9,491 bases of DNA from Candidatus Bathyarchaeota archaeon. Lineage in GTDB: Archaea > Thermoproteota > Bathyarchaeia > Bathyarchaeales > Bathyarchaeaceae. The translations under genes were made by a program, and so were the position numbers. Below the pieces are notes generated by a model. It made no database searches. It was not told the origin of the DNA and saw only the letters and a list, made by a program, of their open reading frames with translations. Of the stretch, positions 1,222-9,491 are shown piece by piece. The stretch is from contig CP070636.1 in the NCBI GenBank assembly GCA_020356305.1, positions 1,459,818 to 1,469,308 of the forward strand, read 5' to 3'. How positions within the stretch are numbered: position 1 is the first letter of the stretch; each line of letters opens with the position of its first letter.

Positions 1222-2835
1222 ATGCGAAAGATTCCTGTGACGATGGCAACCCAACATGCAGATTCAGCTACCAAGCACGTCTTGATTCAGGAAGAGCCTG
1301 ATGAAGCCATTTTGTGCTTCAAGAGGAAGGACGGGTTTGGTTGCGACGAGTATCTTGTAGATTATATGGGCAAACTGACACCTTACCATCAAGTTGGGCA
1401 GATAATTCGTAAGATTCGGCAGGAAACCAACTTTATTCCTGGTCGAGACGTTTTCGTCACTCCGAGAATCGTGAGCTCCTTTGAGGAAGAGCCCTTTAGA
1501 CAATTAATGACTGTCTTAGCCATAATCGAAGGAATTCGCCATTGCATGCAACATTTCAAGGAGCAGGGTATAGTTGAGGTAGTTCAAGCAGTAACCGCGC
1601 CCACTGAACAGTTGAAGATGTGTAAAGAGCGATGCCAAAGTCTGTTGACCCTCGTAGGCAAACATTTACACATGTCTACCAAAGGCATGAACCTTCGCAT
1701 CATCCCTCTTTTTGGAGGAATCGCAGAGCAGCTCTCGATCCAGCAAATTGTTCCTCCGTTAATCCAGGATGCAAAGATAGAGGACGATATGAGATTGTTC
1801 ATCGGAAAGTCTGAACCGTCTCTTCTATATGGACATCCAGCTTCAGTTTTATCCTGTAAAATAGCAATTTCAAGTTGTCACAAGATCGAAGCTGCGAGCG
1901 GCGTAAAGGTTTACCCCATATTTGGCGGAGGATCGCTGCCTTTCCGAGGACACTTAACGTTAGAAAATGCCAGCAACTTTCTGGAAGAATACCGCGGTGT
2001 TCGAACATACACAATCCAGTCTGGCATGAGGTACGATCATGGACTCGATAAAACGCGGGCACTAATTAAAGAGATAAAGAAAGGCGTTGAAAAAGAACCA
2101 TTAGACTTCGACTCTGATCAGCTTGCCAAGATCCAGCAAATGATGTTTATGTTCGCCAAAAATTATCTGATTGAACTGTCTGAGATAGCCGAGAAGGTCA
2201 GCATGATAGCTGACTACATCCCCGCCCAGCGAGACCGTCTGCTTGACGTGGAAGAGGTTGCCTACTACCGCGAACTTCGAAACGTTGAAAGCATTTTAAA
2301 ATTATGTCCTGACAAGGAAGTTAGAAGAAGCATACTAGGATACACTTCGACAGCTTTTCGCAAACCTCCGAGATGGACGAATTTCGTCGCAGCCATGTAT
2401 ACCTGTGGTCTGCCGCCCGAATTAATTGGAACGGGCAGCGCTCTCAAGGAAATCAAGGAGACTATGGGAGAAGAGTGGGTTGAAGCTTTTCTGACAACCA
2501 TAGTCCCCTCCTTCAAAGTTGACATAAAATTCGCCTCTAGATTTCTCGACAGAGATCCTAAACACAACATGTTATTGACGCGAAGACTGACCACGAGCAT
2601 TGGCACATTAGAATCATTCGTTGAATTCGCGGAGCCTGACAACAGCTATATTATCCTTAGTCGAGTAGCAACCGCTTACATAAAAGACATGCTGGCTGGG
2701 AAAATCTCCAAAGCTAAAAAGTTGGCCCTGGTTATCGGTGAAAGTGGTGTTGCCGAATACCTCGACGGGACAAATCAGGAAAATCTAAGCCGGTTGATTC
2801 TCGACCTTGGAAGAATAAGGAAATCTCTCGCGTAG
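1222..2835 (+). CDS. ppcA: Phosphoenolpyruvate carboxylase, archaeal type
   Basis: 537 residues, slightly longer than the roughly 480-520 usual for the archaeal PEPC family and far shorter than bacterial PEPC (about 900). The family carboxylates PEP with bicarbonate to oxaloacetate, feeding the TCA branch and aspartate synthesis in the cytoplasm. Visible hallmarks are the N-terminal TMATQHADS (7-15), the family's TM(A/S)TQHPD-type motif with A for P, then GFGCDEYLVDYMGK (38-51), the Gly-rich GGGSLPFRGHL (235-245) with a conserved Arg, and VDIKFASRFLDRD near the C-terminus. The ATG follows a G-rich ribosome site (1208-1214) by about 7 bases. Two TATA-like stretches (about 1169-1177 and 1191-1198) lie upstream; only the first leaves room for the SD in the leader. 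The stop is TAG, and that codon is in frame with the next gene, a PEPCK-like protein 18-24 bases downstream. Confident family call. Confidence 0.93.
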   Translation: MRKIPVTMATQHADSATKHVLIQEEPDEAILCFKRKDGFGCDEYLVDYMGKLTPYHQVGQIIRKIRQETNFIPGRDVFVTPRIVSSFEEEPFRQLMTVLAIIEGIRHCMQHFKEQGIVEVVQAVTAPTEQLKMCKERCQSLLTLVGKHLHMSTKGMNLRIIPLFGGIAEQLSIQQIVPPLIQDAKIEDDMRLFIGKSEPSLLYGHPASVLSCKIAISSCHKIEAASGVKVYPIFGGGSLPFRGHLTLENASNFLEEYRGVRTYTIQSGMRYDHGLDKTRALIKEIKKGVEKEPLDFDSDQLAKIQQMMFMFAKNYLIELSEIAEKVSMIADYIPAQRDRLLDVEEVAYYRELRNVESILKLCPDKEVRRSILGYTSTAFRKPPRWTNFVAAMYTCGLPPELIGTGSALKEIKETMGEEWVEAFLTTIVPSFKVDIKFASRFLDRDPKHNMLLTRRLTTSIGTLESFVEFAEPDNSYIILSRVATAYIKDMLAGKISKAKKLALVIGESGVAEYLDGTNQENLSRLILDLGRIRKSLA

Positions 2836-4033: not shown

Positions 4034-4077
4034 GGAAAATTGCAGAAAAAGGGAAGGACCCATTGAAGGAGAAGGGG

Positions 4078-4227
4078 ATGGATTTTTTGAAAATTCAAGA
4101 AATGAAGCGCCGTGCCGTACGTTTGAGACGGTTGATCGACTCAAATGAGAACAAAGAGCGGAAGGCACAAATGCTTCGAGAGTATGCGCATCTCATCTGG
4201 CTGATCTGCACCCGCTCAAAAACCTAA
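4078..4227 (+). CDS. Small basic helical protein (49 residues), unknown
   Basis: The frame runs ATG to TAA and encodes 49 residues, about 30% Lys/Arg/Glu. Residues 4-46 look like one or two helices with a coiled-coil pattern: MKRRAVRLRRLIDSNENKERKAQMLREYAHLIWLI. The C-terminal third is hydrophobic (AHLIWLICT). Support for its being real: a GGAG site (4068-4071) 6 bases before the ATG, a good TATA box at 4026-4033 at the right distance, and a codon pattern that reads like protein throughout. A TTG at 4063 is also in frame but lies before the SD. I recognise no family. The size and charge would fit a small nucleic-acid-binding or adaptor protein, but that is only a guess. Confidence 0.55.
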   Translation: MDFLKIQEMKRRAVRLRRLIDSNENKERKAQMLREYAHLIWLICTRSKT

Positions 4228-4536
4228 ATCACAGACTCCTCGACCTAATCCTTAGCGCCTCCTATAAAAAGAACGAATTCTGTAGCTTTTCGCATTATCA
4301 TGACGTACATTGCAGCTCTAAATCTTAAGGGTTCAAGAACGATTCCGCCCAATGGCGCTCCGAATACGACGCGGGGCCTGTTCATGGTATGGCATTACTA
4401 AAAACCCCGCCGCAAGAACTCGGGAAATATCGCGCCTTCCTCTTTTGCAACTCGGGATTTTGCCAAAATTCAGATTGCAAATTCATAATCATTTTAAGTA
4501 GCGGAAAAACCAGTTTAAACTGTAGGTGGTACCGCA
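4228..4536 (+). other. Gene-free stretch, no clear feature
   Basis: I find no convincing gene here. There is a TATA-like CTATAAAAA (about 4262-4269) with a short frame (ATG 4300 to TAA 4401, 33 residues) that lacks an SD and looks like chance. GCGGGG (4371-4376) and CCCCGC (4405-4410) could close a long-loop hairpin. An AT-rich stretch near 4485-4500 may hold the promoter of the gene at 4537. A degraded gene or unrecognised small RNA cannot be excluded. Confidence 0.4.
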
Positions 4537-5316: not shown

Positions 5317-5385
5317 ATCATTAGCCAAGAAGACTTGGCGATTCAACCATTACGGATCTCCCCGATTCAAACAGCAAGCAAGTAA

Positions 5386-5393
5386 ACTTTATC
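5386..5393 (+). promoter_or_regulatory. Possible TATA box before uppP
   Basis: ACTTTATC lies about 28 bases before the GTG at 5418 and only a few bases before the TTG at 5397. If it is the promoter, transcription starts near 5415 and GTG 5418 is the start of an almost leaderless message. Confidence 0.4.
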
Positions 5394-5417
5394 AAATTGC
5401 ACTCAAACCTCAATTGG

Positions 5418-6209
5418 GTGTACAAGGTTTACAACAGAATAATTAAGACTATAATCCTCGCTATTGTCCAAGGCGTAACCGAGTGGCTGCCCATATCCAG
5501 CTCTGGGCACATTGTCATTGTGGAGGAGTTGACGGGCCTAGAACAATTGCCTCTCCTCTTTCCTGTGACGTTGCATTTAGGAACCCTATGTGTGGTCTTG
5601 GCAACGTTCTGGACAGACATTGCAGAGATTTTCAAAGCTTTGTTCCGGAGGAACTTCAAGACAGAAGAGGGAAAGCTAGCTCTGTACATCGCAGTAGGAA
5701 GTGTGCCCACCGCTTTGATGGGTTTCCTCCTCCGCAACATCGTTGAATCTTTATTCCATAGCCTTCTGACGGTTGCCGCGGCACTAATCATTACTGGCTC
5801 TTATCTCGTTGTTTCTGAAAGAAGAAGAGACGGGAGAGAAATGAACTATCTAGATGCGTTGCTGATTGGGATGGCGCAGGGCATCGCTATCATTCCCGGC
5901 ATTTCCAGAAGCGGCGTCACAATAACTACGGGGTTGTTGAGAAGGCTTGAGAAACAAAAAGTGTTCAGATACTCGTTTCTGCTGTCGATACCCGCTATAA
6001 TAGGAGCAATCATCACTGAGTCCATGAATCTGACCGCTGGCAATGTGGACACAGCTACCCTTCTGCTCGGCGTGGTAACATCCATGATCGTGGGCTATGC
6101 ATCTTTGAAACTGCTGTCGAAGATTATTCTAAGAGAAAGGCTTCACCTCTTTGCGTATTACTGCTGGACCGTCGGCGCAATACTCCTCTTTTACAGCTTC
6201 TTGGGTTAG
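5418..6209 (+). CDS. uppP: Undecaprenyl/polyprenyl-diphosphate phosphatase (UppP/BacA family)
   Basis: 263 residues from GTG 5418, close to the family's usual 260-275, with about seven or eight membrane helices. The family removes one phosphate from a polyprenyl diphosphate at the membrane, recycling the lipid carrier for cell-envelope or glycan assembly; in archaea the carrier is probably dolichol-type. Motif 1 is QGVTEWLPISSSGH (18-31), with Q18, E22 and H31 lining up with E. coli E17, E21 and H30. Motif 2 is PGISRSG (160-166), with the catalytic Arg at 164. Start choice: the frame stays open to TTG 5397, but GTG 5418 gives the usual N-terminal length and suits the TATA box. No SD is visible. 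The stop is TAG, with an in-frame TGA two codons later. Confident family call. Confidence 0.92.
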   Translation: MYKVYNRIIKTIILAIVQGVTEWLPISSSGHIVIVEELTGLEQLPLLFPVTLHLGTLCVVLATFWTDIAEIFKALFRRNFKTEEGKLALYIAVGSVPTALMGFLLRNIVESLFHSLLTVAAALIITGSYLVVSERRRDGREMNYLDALLIGMAQGIAIIPGISRSGVTITTGLLRRLEKQKVFRYSFLLSIPAIIGAIITESMNLTAGNVDTATLLLGVVTSMIVGYASLKLLSKIILRERLHLFAYYCWTVGAILLFYSFLG

Positions 6210-6338
6210 GTTTGAAGAACACGTAGAAACGAAACGGTCCTTCCACAATTCGTTGAGTTTTCGTGGCAGATTGTGAAACAAATAAGAGAAACTACGCGCC
6301 GTAGTTGTGTAGGGCTGTCAGAGAGCGGAGGATGTGTG

Positions 6339-6965
6339 ATGGTATCCGCAAAAAAGTCTCCAAGCATTGTTTACTGGCTCGGGAACAACACGTACCTGAA
6401 CATAACAAACGAGTGCTCTAATGACTGCTACTACTGCTTCAAAAGGTACAAAAACGGCGTTGACGGGTTTAATCTTAAACTACGTAGAGACCCCTCACCA
6501 AGAGAGATTACCCAACAGCTTCAAAGGGTTCTCAGCAAAAAAACTTGGGATGAAATTGTCTTTTGCGGGTTCGGAGAACCTATGCAAAGACTGAACTGCA
6601 TCTTGGAAGTTGCGACATGGATAAAGAAACACTCTGCAGAAATTCTCAGGATAAACACTAACGGTCAAGGATACCTCTTAAATCCCGGAGACAAGGTGAT
6701 CAGGAAACTAAAGAAAGCCGGCGTCGACAAGATAAGCGTAAGCCTAAATGCTCACAACAAAGAAACATACAACGACGTGTGTAGACCGAAATTTGGAAAT
6801 GCCTTTGAAAACGTTGTGAAATTCATCGAAGACTCGAGCAAGGAATTCAAAACAGAAATAACAACTGTAACCATTCCCGAAGTCGACATTTCAAAAGTGC
6901 GAGATCTAGCCAGAAAGATGGGGGTAACGTTCAGAACAAGAGAATATGTACCCTGCTTCTGGTAA
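6339..6965 (+). CDS. Radical SAM protein, TatD-linked family
   Basis: 208 residues from ATG 6339. The frame extends to GTG 6273, but GGAGG (6327-6331) sits 7 bases before 6339 and the family motif YLNITN begins soon after, so 6339 is preferred. CxxxCxxC at C26, C30 and C33 binds the [4Fe-4S] cluster that cleaves S-adenosylmethionine. The motifs VFCGFGEP (74-81), RINTNGQG (104-111), VSVSLNAH...TYNDVCRPKFG and the C-terminal FRTREYVP match the short radical SAM group often fused or linked to TatD DNases (TIGR04038 type) as I recall it. The substrate of this group is unknown. No TatD gene lies in this window. The protein lacks any extra C-terminal cluster (SPASM) domain and is near full length for the group. 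The stop is TAA. Confidence 0.85.
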   Translation: MVSAKKSPSIVYWLGNNTYLNITNECSNDCYYCFKRYKNGVDGFNLKLRRDPSPREITQQLQRVLSKKTWDEIVFCGFGEPMQRLNCILEVATWIKKHSAEILRINTNGQGYLLNPGDKVIRKLKKAGVDKISVSLNAHNKETYNDVCRPKFGNAFENVVKFIEDSSKEFKTEITTVTIPEVDISKVRDLARKMGVTFRTREYVPCFW

Positions 6966-7057
6966 AGCTCATAGATCATGCGCGCGCACCTTCTGAACTC
7001 CGCTTCGAGAGCATGCATAATTTCTTATTGTTGGGAAGAACAGCACTTTTGGAAAAA

Positions 7058-7066
7058 TTATAAAAG
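7058..7066 (+). promoter_or_regulatory. TATA box for the gene at 7091
   Basis: TTATAAAAG within an A/T-rich stretch is centred about 29 bases before the ATG at 7091. The expected transcription start is near 7088, so the message is probably leaderless; no SD is visible. Confidence 0.6.
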
Positions 7067-7090
7067 GGCTTCTTCTAACAATCTTTCTCT

Positions 7091-7627
7091 ATGGAAAAAA
7101 AGAAGAGAATTGGGCTTCTCGCCTTACTGGTGTTCATTGCCGGAATCATTATGGCCATCATTGATGCGGTTGTAACCGTACATTATGATGTTCTCCCCGA
7201 ACAGCCTTCAGCAAATTTCTCAGATCTGGTGATAAACGGTCCTATGTGGTGGAAAATAAATCCAGTTATTATCATAACCATCATATGTGTTGGAGTGATA
7301 GCATTCTTGCTTGGAAACGACATTGGAAAATCGACGAGTCTTTCAAAGGAACTGAGAGAACTTATGCCCGTGTTCCTTACATTTGTAACTCTTTCATTTT
7401 CGGGACTAGGTGACATAATATCACAGACATTCATTGAATATTTGAGGGGAAATAACCCGTTCGCTTGGTTACATCACGAGTGGTGGTGGACAAGGTTCAT
7501 GCCAATTCCAGCGCTGATAGCTTTTCTAGCGGGCCACAGCGTTCCCCTAGGGATAGACATGGTGATTGGGTCTATTGTGGGAATCTTCATTCTGGCTGCA
7601 ATGTGGTTCTACTACTATAAACACTAA
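7091..7627 (+). CDS. Polytopic membrane protein, unknown function
   Basis: 178 residues with a Lys-rich N-terminus (MEKKKR) and four or five hydrophobic segments: about 7-28, 57-75, 91-110, a shorter one at 137-149, and 153-175. Between the third and fourth is an aromatic, charged loop, HHEWWWTRFMP (128-138). The third segment ends in SFSGLGDIISQ. Repeated polar residues in the helices (D25, D155, H149, E130) could be functional, but I see no known transport or enzyme motif. The ATG at 7091 is the first in frame and fits the TATA box at 7058-7066 as a leaderless start. The stop is TAA, followed by T/C-rich sequence (about 7660-7688) that may end transcription. I do not recognise the family; a conserved archaeal membrane protein seems likely. 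Confidence 0.7.
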   Translation: MEKKKRIGLLALLVFIAGIIMAIIDAVVTVHYDVLPEQPSANFSDLVINGPMWWKINPVIIITIICVGVIAFLLGNDIGKSTSLSKELRELMPVFLTFVTLSFSGLGDIISQTFIEYLRGNNPFAWLHHEWWWTRFMPIPALIAFLAGHSVPLGIDMVIGSIVGIFILAAMWFYYYKH

Positions 7628-8431: not shown

Positions 8432-8476
8432 GTTCAAGCGAAAATTGGTAAGACGCTTTGAAAGCCAGAATAGTAG

Positions 8477-8486
8477 AAAGGAGGTG
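8477..8486 (+). promoter_or_regulatory. Strong Shine-Dalgarno fixing a TTG start
   Basis: AAAGGAGGTG ends 8 bases before TTG 8495 but 20 bases before the first in-frame ATG (8507). This decides for the TTG start. Confidence 0.8.
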
Positions 8487-8494
8487 AAAGAACT

Positions 8495-9491
8495 TTGGGG
8501 AGATCTATGCTAAGGCTTCTTTCTAAAGAAGACATGGATAAGATCCATCGCGCTACAGTGAAGGTGCTGGAGGAGACTGGTGTCCAGTTTTTCCACGACG
8601 AGGCCTTGAACATTCTTGAGAAGAACGGGGCTGTAGTGGATCGGAAAACGAAGACGGCAAAGATACCGGAGTCCGTGTTCGATGAATTCAGGAAAAAGGC
8701 TCCAAGCGAATTGCCTCGATTTGATCGGAACGGTAGGAGAGTCCCAATACCCGAAGAGGATTTCTTTATTGACACTTTTGGTGATGGCACATATTTCACA
8801 GATCGAGATGGAACTCAGCGTCCATCCACTCTGAAAGACATTGAAAAGATAATGATTGTCGGTGATGCGCTGGAGAATGTCGACGAGGCGTGGGTGGGAT
8901 CTATGCCAACGGATTTGCATCCAAATGTGCAAATAATCCATTCTTTGGAGGTACTAGTAAACAACAGTCCTACTAAACCTTTCAGTCTATTTGGAGAGAA
9001 TGGGAATCAAATAAGGTACGCAATGAGAATCGGTGAGGCGCTGTTGGGAGGAATGGAAGAACTCAGGAAGACACCCGTCATAGTTGGTGGCGGGTGGGCT
9101 ACTAGCCCCTTGATGCATGCAAATGATATTCTTGACTCTCAAATCATAGCTGCGAAGGAAGGATTCCCTACTTCCTGTGGAAGCATGGCCACGTCTATTA
9201 CAACTGCTCCAGCAACATTGGCGGGAACCGTAGTGGTGTGGAACGCAGAAGTCATGAGTAGTCTGGTGTTGTCGCAGATGATAGCGCCTGGAGTTCCATT
9301 TCAGATCGAATGCTCTGGAACTGCCACAGACCCGCGGAGGGGATACTACCCTGTTGGAAACCCTGAGATGGCTTTGATCAACGCTGGCTGCATGGAACTG
9401 TCGAACTACTACGATCTCCCGTGTTTGGTTGCTGCTTGCTAGGCAGACGCCAAGATAGTTGACCCTCAGGCCGCCCACGAGAAAACAATCA
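8495..9491 (+). CDS. mttB: Trimethylamine methyltransferase MttB family, in-frame TAG (pyrrolysine), runs off window
   Basis: 332 codons are visible from TTG 8495. TAG is at codon 316 (9440-9442) and the frame stays open to the window edge, so the gene is partial at its 3' end. The family transfers a methyl group from trimethylamine (or a related quaternary amine) to a cognate corrinoid protein; it folds as a TIM barrel in the cytoplasm. Family-like stretches are LLSKEDMDKIHRATVKVLEETGV near the N-terminus, VGGGWATSPL, GFPTSCGSMATSITTAPATLAG, ECSGTATDPRRG and NPEMALINAGCMELSNYYDLPC before the TAG. After it the frame reads ADAKIVDPQAAHEKTI, matching the family's (S/A)DAK.PD.QA..EK segment. Methanosarcina MttB carries pyrrolysine at about residue 334, so position 316 fits with a slightly shorter N-terminus. 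Corrinoid protein and activator genes would be expected beyond the window. Substrate specificity within the family is inference. Confidence 0.9.
9440..9442 (+). other. In-frame amber codon read as pyrrolysine
   Basis: The TAG lies between LPCLVAAC and ADAKIVDPQAAHEK of one continuous MttB reading frame. Pyrrolysine at this position is the catalytic residue that binds the methylamine in pyrrolysine-type MttB. No pylT or pylSBCD gene is in the window, so decoding is inferred from the conserved position. Confidence 0.85.

Follow-up and report, generated by a model that had tools for sequence, protein, structure and literature searches.

An in-frame TAG, very probably a pyrrolysine codon, in a divergent MttB-family methyltransferase gene of a bathyarchaeon

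The closest described counterpart of the gene reported here is the trimethylamine methyltransferase MttB of Methanosarcina barkeri, known from the structures 7xcl and 7xcm and represented by the NCBIfam model TIGR02369 (trimeth_pyl). According to the accessible text of PMC9842639, Pyl334 (pyrrolysine, Pyl), Gly110, Tyr364 and Met249 lie in the MttB active site, Gly110 and Tyr364 are fully conserved in Pyl-MttB, Glu225 forms a salt bridge with MttC, and residues 82–395 make up the TIM barrel. The same superfamily holds members without Pyl, including glycine betaine methyltransferase (9yce, 2qne) and bathyarchaeal paralogues, which are present in many copies in the same genomes. Unlike Pyl-MttB, these enzymes carry a sense residue at the Pyl column (in 9yce, as judged by eye).

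The use of Pyl in Bathyarchaeia is already known, because it has been published. The accessible portion of Mukai 2017 (PMC5424206) describes borehole archaea, Bathyarchaeota among them, with PylRS and Pyl-utilizing MtmB, MtbB and MttB genes, and that of Sun 2021 (PMC9723677) describes Pyl clusters in Bathyarchaeota archaeon JdFR-11. Two reviews, as far as their accessible sections go, also list Bathyarchaeota with Pyl; one terms them methylotrophic methanogens (PMC9499178), and the other gives the combination of a separate PylSn with PylSc as rare in archaea, at 7/75 (PMC11764691). A bathyarchaeal mttB is reported in the accessible part of PMC11264602, from which the word pyrrolysine is absent. 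A first-pass annotation of the DNA studied here had considered a Pyl-type MttB outside Methanosarcina to be of special interest; that observation stands, and its novelty is lowered by the reports of PMC5424206 and PMC9723677 as far as they are accessible.

Candidatus Hecatella orcuttiae (JdFR-10/11) belongs, like the relatives bin28 (CP070759.1) and G217 described below, to the Bathyarchaeia with Pyl genes. The genome G211 encodes a PylS that agrees letter for letter with the listed Hecatella sequence. In G211, pylT-S-B-C-D form one run that adjoins a TAG-bearing mttB and a corrinoid-protein gene, there is no space for PylSn between pylT and pylS, and the MttB scores 667.7 bits against TIGR02369. 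By contrast, PylSn and PylSc are separate proteins in bin28 and G217, where the pyl genes are dispersed and MttB is divergent and present in several copies. The Sifarchaeia (Asgard) offer a further likeness, being non-methanogenic archaea with Pyl genes in which UAG is an ordinary stop (21%), but the only in-frame UAG reported for them in the accessible text of PMC9723677 is in mtbB, not mttB.

The stretch of DNA that we analysed, hereafter the window, comprises 9,491 nucleotides of the forward strand of a Candidatus Bathyarchaeota archaeon contig (CP070636.1, positions 1,459,818 to 1,469,308). Pieces at 4061–4367, 5384–6385, 6385–6974 and 7038–7623 match bin28 at 73–80% nucleotide identity, in the same order and on the same strand, with an additional stretch of about 3.1 kb separating the second piece from the third in bin28. 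In a DNA comparison with six genomes, CSMAG_1134 matched 5379–6965 at 71%, and the mttB region (8476–9489) was 83% identical to bin28 and 85% identical to CSMAG_1134. The bin28 mttB copies sit elsewhere, outside the stretch collinear with the window, and the PEPC gene of the window (1222–2835) was unmatched in bin28 at E 1e-60. The window therefore derives from a bathyarchaeon that is near bin28 and distinct from it. Its archaeal-type PEPC is patchy across the class, with matches at E 1e-60 in 8 of 256 genomes, the closest being in G062 (84%), where the class searches found neither PylS nor a TAG-bearing mttB.

Several other features of the window were observed. A tRNA gene at 1015–1123 scores 52 bits in Rfam and receives no call from ARAGORN; its length suggests an intron, and bin28 has a counterpart of 946–1123 at 89% identity. 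Positions 6273–6965 encode a TatD-linked radical SAM protein (TIGR04038, 210.2 bits; cut-off 129.7), and the TatD family itself had no match among the ten window proteins scanned against Pfam and NCBIfam. The PEPC gene ends in TAG at 2833–2835, and six codons on, at 2854, a PEPCK-like gene begins in the same frame. We considered and rejected a read-through fusion of the two: in the five relatives readable across this junction (L065–L069; L064 ends within PEPC and is absent from the count) the PEPC stop is TAG in two, TGA in two and TAA in one, and a further in-frame stop follows within 14 codons in all five, so that the shared frame is probably due to chance. In L067 the gene after PEPC also lies in the same frame, behind two TGAs.

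At the end of the window, re-reading reproduced exactly the arrangement given by the first-pass annotation, which is an MttB frame of 315 codons, a TAG and 16 further in-frame codons (Table 1). The TTG at 8495, with the Shine-Dalgarno-like stretch at 8480–8487, looks likelier from the sequence to be the start than the ATG at 8507. When read through, the frame scores 144.7 bits against PF06253 (MTTB; gathering cut-off 25), which places it within the family, and 282 bits against TIGR02369 over model positions 3–330 of 469, where the cut-off of 525 bits applies to full-length sequences and the window piece spans 328 of the 469 positions. Alignment to MttB, which had been proposed as a check, puts the TAG on the Pyl column of the solved structures, opposite the residue printed as K in 7xcm and X in 7xcl, and so agrees with the suggestion that a TAG at this position is that of Pyl-type MttB. 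Judging from the sequence, the TAG is very probably a Pyl codon in the gene of a corrinoid-dependent MttB-family methyltransferase, in a bathyarchaeon related to bin28. This reading draws on the frame, its family and the position of the TAG, together with the conservation of the codon in its clade, the selection acting downstream of it and the pyl genes of relatives.

Table 1. Coordinates of the mttB features at the end of the window
Feature	Position	Strand	Basis
Shine-Dalgarno-like GGAGGTGA, 7 bases upstream of TTG 8495	8480..8487	+	Inferred from sequence
mttB 5' part, 315 codons from TTG 8495 (alternative ATG 8507)	8495..9439	+	Frame, Pfam and NCBIfam matches
In-frame TAG for residue 316, predicted to encode Pyl; counterpart of Pyl334 in M. 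barkeri MttB	9440..9442	+	
mttB continuation, 16 codons ADAKIVDPQAAHEKTI, stops at window end	9443..9490	+	

A scan of genome contigs identified five loci that encode relatives of the read-through protein: three in bin28, one in CSMAG_1134 and one in a Methanomassiliicoccaceae MAG. The four from bin28 and CSMAG_1134 are 84–87% identical over the matched part. A class-wide search with an alignment of the window type, in which rows were not chosen for a TAG, returned 12 rows of at least 364 bits, and each of the ten that span the codon has one TAG. Copy numbers from this search are lower bounds, because 6 of up to 27 candidates were scored in the richest genomes. Read as DNA, the Pyl column holds TAG at 15 of 15 loci, and TAA or TGA at none (the window, three loci of bin28, CSMAG_1134, eight of G217, G211 and one Methanomassiliicoccaceae contig), the nine from G217 and G211 having been chosen because they hold a TAG. 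The bin28 copies L003 and L004 stop short of the codon and are not part of this count, and L041 and L049 (the latter the same gene as L001) were left out of the column alignment. Rows L052 and L054 of that alignment are in the wrong frame; the copy behind L054, when read again, has TAG at the column.

The sequence beyond the TAG is also conserved. The mttB genes of bin28 and CSMAG_1134, two Bathyarchaeota MAGs, are 84% identical to that of the window, remain open for about 160 codons past the TAG and end in TAA. Between the two relatives, dN/dS is 0.126 over the 310 codons before the TAG and 0.082 over the 161 codons after it, and the sequence after the TAG is under purifying selection in these relatives. 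The window differs from each relative by one amino-acid change over its 16 post-TAG codons. Homologues in close relatives with a sense codon at this position and no downstream conservation had been named as evidence that would speak against a Pyl codon; instead, the TAG is kept and the downstream sequence is constrained.

Protein catalogues give a matching picture from the side of gene prediction. The bin28 protein had 921 matches (7993 candidates sharing the most words were scored, and 120 of the 921 were listed), for which the catalogue shows protein ends rather than codons. Among the 120 listed, 59 clusters are 76–100% identical to the bin28 protein, and 58 of these terminate exactly before the Pyl column, the exception (P0056) being a partial bin28 protein; seven further clusters, 45–50% identical, also terminate there. 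It had been predicted that a gene caller would wrongly end the protein at the TAG, and the ends of these 58 clusters bear this out. The other 54 listed proteins are at most 38% identical and 451–788 residues long; at the Pyl column, 53 of them have a sense residue and one has a gap. One catalogue protein (P0076, 788 residues) joins an MTTB domain to PF00670, PF01450, PF03446 and PF07991, which we take to be dehydrogenase-type domains. In a tree of 59 rows of our own choosing, a single branch with support 97/88 has 19 Pyl rows on one side, six of them proteins that end at the column, and the 40 sense rows of non-Pyl enzymes on the other; the window, bin28, CSMAG_1134 and P0057 cluster together at 100/100.

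These data bear on the possibility that the TAG arose by nonsense mutation, or by an error in sequencing, in an mttB copy that is either ordinary or decaying, the downstream match being a leftover. The lineage has several mttB copies, so that one could decay, no corrinoid-protein gene lies upstream of mttB in the window, and G143, a genome in which the class search found no PylS, does have off-column in-frame TAGs in one of its MttB paralogues. But a chance lesion would hardly fall on the Pyl column, recur in all ten rows of the closest group and all 15 DNA-read loci (nine chosen for their TAG), coincide with the ends of 58 of the 59 listed clusters, and be followed in relatives by sequence with a dN/dS of 0.082, and we regard this explanation as very improbable. 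The G143 paralogue itself (L077) has two in-frame TAGs, both away from the Pyl column, which may reflect a pseudogene, an error or some other recoding. We therefore rejected the presence of a TAG within an MttB paralogue as sufficient proof of Pyl.

Stop-codon usage was sampled from mechanical, uncurated ORFs with a minimum length of 150 residues (100 for the window) over 400 kb per genome, with Pyl-TAG ends included. By this measure TAG ends 74 of 265 ORFs in bin28 (27.9%), 58 of 271 in G217 (21.4%), 92 of 303 in G211 (30.4%) and 92 of 255 in G060 (36.1%), the last being a genome with no PylS in the class search; in the window, four of the eight frames of at least 100 residues meet a TAG, that of mttB included. 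Since TAG ends 21–30% of sampled ORFs in the relatives with Pyl, we rejected recoding of TAG across the whole genome, and UAG appears to serve as both stop and Pyl codon.

The frequency of TAG stops in these genomes would also fit a true stop in mttB, yielding a 315-residue protein and perhaps a separately translated C-terminal part, as would the ends of the predicted proteins in 58 of the 59 listed clusters and an ATG in bin28 that opens a 139-codon frame 66 bases past the TAG. However, the first part would then break off within the TIM barrel and without Tyr364, and a plain stop accounts neither for the absence of TAA and TGA at the codon in all 15 loci nor for the coincidence with the Pyl column and the presence of pyl genes in relatives. 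We give a true stop the same very small chance as decay or error, and a Pyl codon remains much the better explanation.

The machinery that a Pyl codon would require is present in relatives. PylSc exceeded the cut-off in three of the 256 genomes of the class, namely bin28, G211 and G217, and so did PylB in these three, PylC in bin28 and G211, while PylD is present in G211 and G217. No PylC match was found in G217, and in bin28 PylD gave two loose matches of 18–19 bits, not over the cut-off; these absences may be gaps or real. The pylT/pylS/pylBCD set is complete in G211, complete except for PylD in bin28, and without PylC in G217. In bin28, pylC is in two pieces with overlapping ends and adjoins a corrinoid-protein gene, and a copy of the window-type mttB is divergent to that gene. 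CSMAG_1134 (about 1.0 Mb) has a TAG-bearing mttB and no PylS over the cut-off.

ARAGORN called a tRNA-Pyl (CUA) gene upstream of pylS in both G211 and G217. In bin28, a CUA tRNA gene was located by eye before pylSn, at about 13067–13135 of L012; it is uncalled by ARAGORN, has an unusual T-loop and an A at the place of U33, the usual base in tRNA, and these oddities may stem from sequencing error, decay or a genuine variant. An Rfam scan of the three pyl loci did not recognise the tRNA-Pyl genes as tRNA. PylSn has a gene of its own between pylT and pylSc in bin28 (97.5 bits; L012 13149–13424) and G217 (100.2 bits; L056 10348–10716), against a cut-off of 51.15. Among the matches listed, at least 35 PylS clusters are 80–91% identical to the bin28 PylS over its whole length, so this type of PylS is apparently frequent in places where the mttB clade is found; PylS and mttB are not linked to the same cells. 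In a PylS tree, bin28 and G217 group at 93/98, apart from the group holding Hecatella (96/87); the root of this tree is meaningless because the Methanomassiliicoccaceae row, its faulty outgroup, is a wrong ORF with a very long branch.

Reading of the TAG by another tRNA and amino acid, in an organism without a complete Pyl pathway, could be argued from the missing PylD of bin28, the missing PylC of G217 and the rarity of PylS finds in the class (3 of 256 genomes), but it is no more probable than the two explanations above, given that bin28 retains PylSn, PylSc, PylB, PylC and a CUA tRNA gene and that at least 35 listed PylS clusters, not linked with mttB to the same cells, are 80–91% identical to its own.

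Taking the TAG as a Pyl codon, we asked how its gene compares with canonical Pyl-MttB. The TAG column and the 97/88 branch place the clade in the Pyl-MttB group, and with M. barkeri MttB it shares the superfamily, a similar length, the TAG/Pyl column and the active-site equivalents: Gly110 corresponds in the window to the Gly of an FGDG motif, Met249 is also kept, and Tyr364, at a position beyond the window end, is Tyr in bin28 and CSMAG_1134. The clade differs in several respects. The bin28 protein is 36–37% identical to the canonical enzymes of G211 (L055) and a Methanomassiliicoccaceae genome (L005); at the place of Thr111 the window and bin28 have Asp, and CSMAG_1134 has Glu; and at that of Glu225 the window has Met, by visual reading of the alignment. 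All eight full-length clade members tested fall below the 525-bit trimethylamine cut-off of TIGR02369 (bin28, 457.7; CSMAG_1134, 462; six of six from G217, 398–454), whereas the proteins of G211 and L005 (602.4) both pass. The first-pass annotation had proposed a Pyl-type trimethylamine methyltransferase. Membership of Pyl-MttB holds, whereas specificity for trimethylamine is not secured, because the full-length close relatives score below the cut-off; by analogy with the family, trimethylamine would be the likeliest, though unproven, substrate.

The clade is also present in multiple copies. G217 has 14 TAG-bearing MTTB matches, some of them fragments, of which eight were examined at the Pyl column, and bin28 has at least three mttB copies that span the codon, plus pieces that fall short of it. 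Several bin28 copies (L001, L003, L004, L012, L094 and L100) are interrupted by runs of N, and the window too stops within mttB; these may be loci at which nearly identical copies cause assemblies to break. The canonical mttB of G211 (L055 7363–7365) has the Pyl-column TAG inside, a second TAG at its end and a TGA two codons later, as if to back up the stop.

Regarding metabolism, mcrA (TIGR03256) was found in none of four relatives, whose genomes are possibly incomplete, and these organisms are on that ground probably methylotrophic rather than methanogenic. Corrinoid proteins exceed the TIGR02370 cut-off in all four relatives; the bin28 corrinoid-protein gene divergent to the window-type mttB scores 186.6 bits, below that cut-off (215.3), and no corrinoid protein was matched among the ten window proteins scanned, which cover the upstream side of mttB only. 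The description of an archaeon other than Methanosarcina that has a Pyl codon in an MttB-family gene and no methanogen-like gene set accords with the bin28 matches, the tRNA-Pyl and pyl genes of relatives and the failure to find mcrA in the four.

Our data are consistent with a model in which the cell from which the window derives would make Pyl with PylB, PylC and PylD, the genes for which are known from relatives, and charge tRNA-Pyl(CUA) with PylSn and PylSc. Pyl would then be inserted at the mttB UAG in competition with release factor. The resulting protein would be about 475 residues long, and its Pyl imine would bind and activate a methylated amine, most likely trimethylamine. The methyl group would be passed to a cognate corrinoid protein and, following published proposals for the class, its carbon would enter tetrahydromethanopterin/Wood–Ljungdahl metabolism and not methane.

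What is possibly new is the divergent, multi-copy Pyl-MttB clade itself, about 36% identical to canonical members, below the trimethylamine cut-off and cut short in catalogues; no description of it was found in the titles and beginnings of abstracts that our literature search covered. A bolder proposal, which we offer tentatively and consider rather unlikely to hold, is that a lineage-specific Pyl methyltransferase subfamily has expanded in mcr-less Bathyarchaeia, where it would demethylate amines other than or beyond trimethylamine and be served by a split PylSn/PylSc, in cells that use UAG as the stop in a fifth to nearly a third of their genes.

Overall, our analysis extends the short list of archaea that are inferred to use the 22nd amino acid but not to make methane by a bathyarchaeal lineage distinct from Hecatella. 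What the catalogues list for this enzyme clade are fragments that break off at the Pyl codon (58 of 59 clusters). Under the bolder proposal, this truncation would lead to Pyl-dependent methylotrophy in sediments being undercounted, and if the subfamily is functional, the use of methylated amines by these sediment archaea is underestimated. The lineage may also provide a test case for how one cell retains UAG for two purposes, as a frequent stop and as the codon for Pyl.
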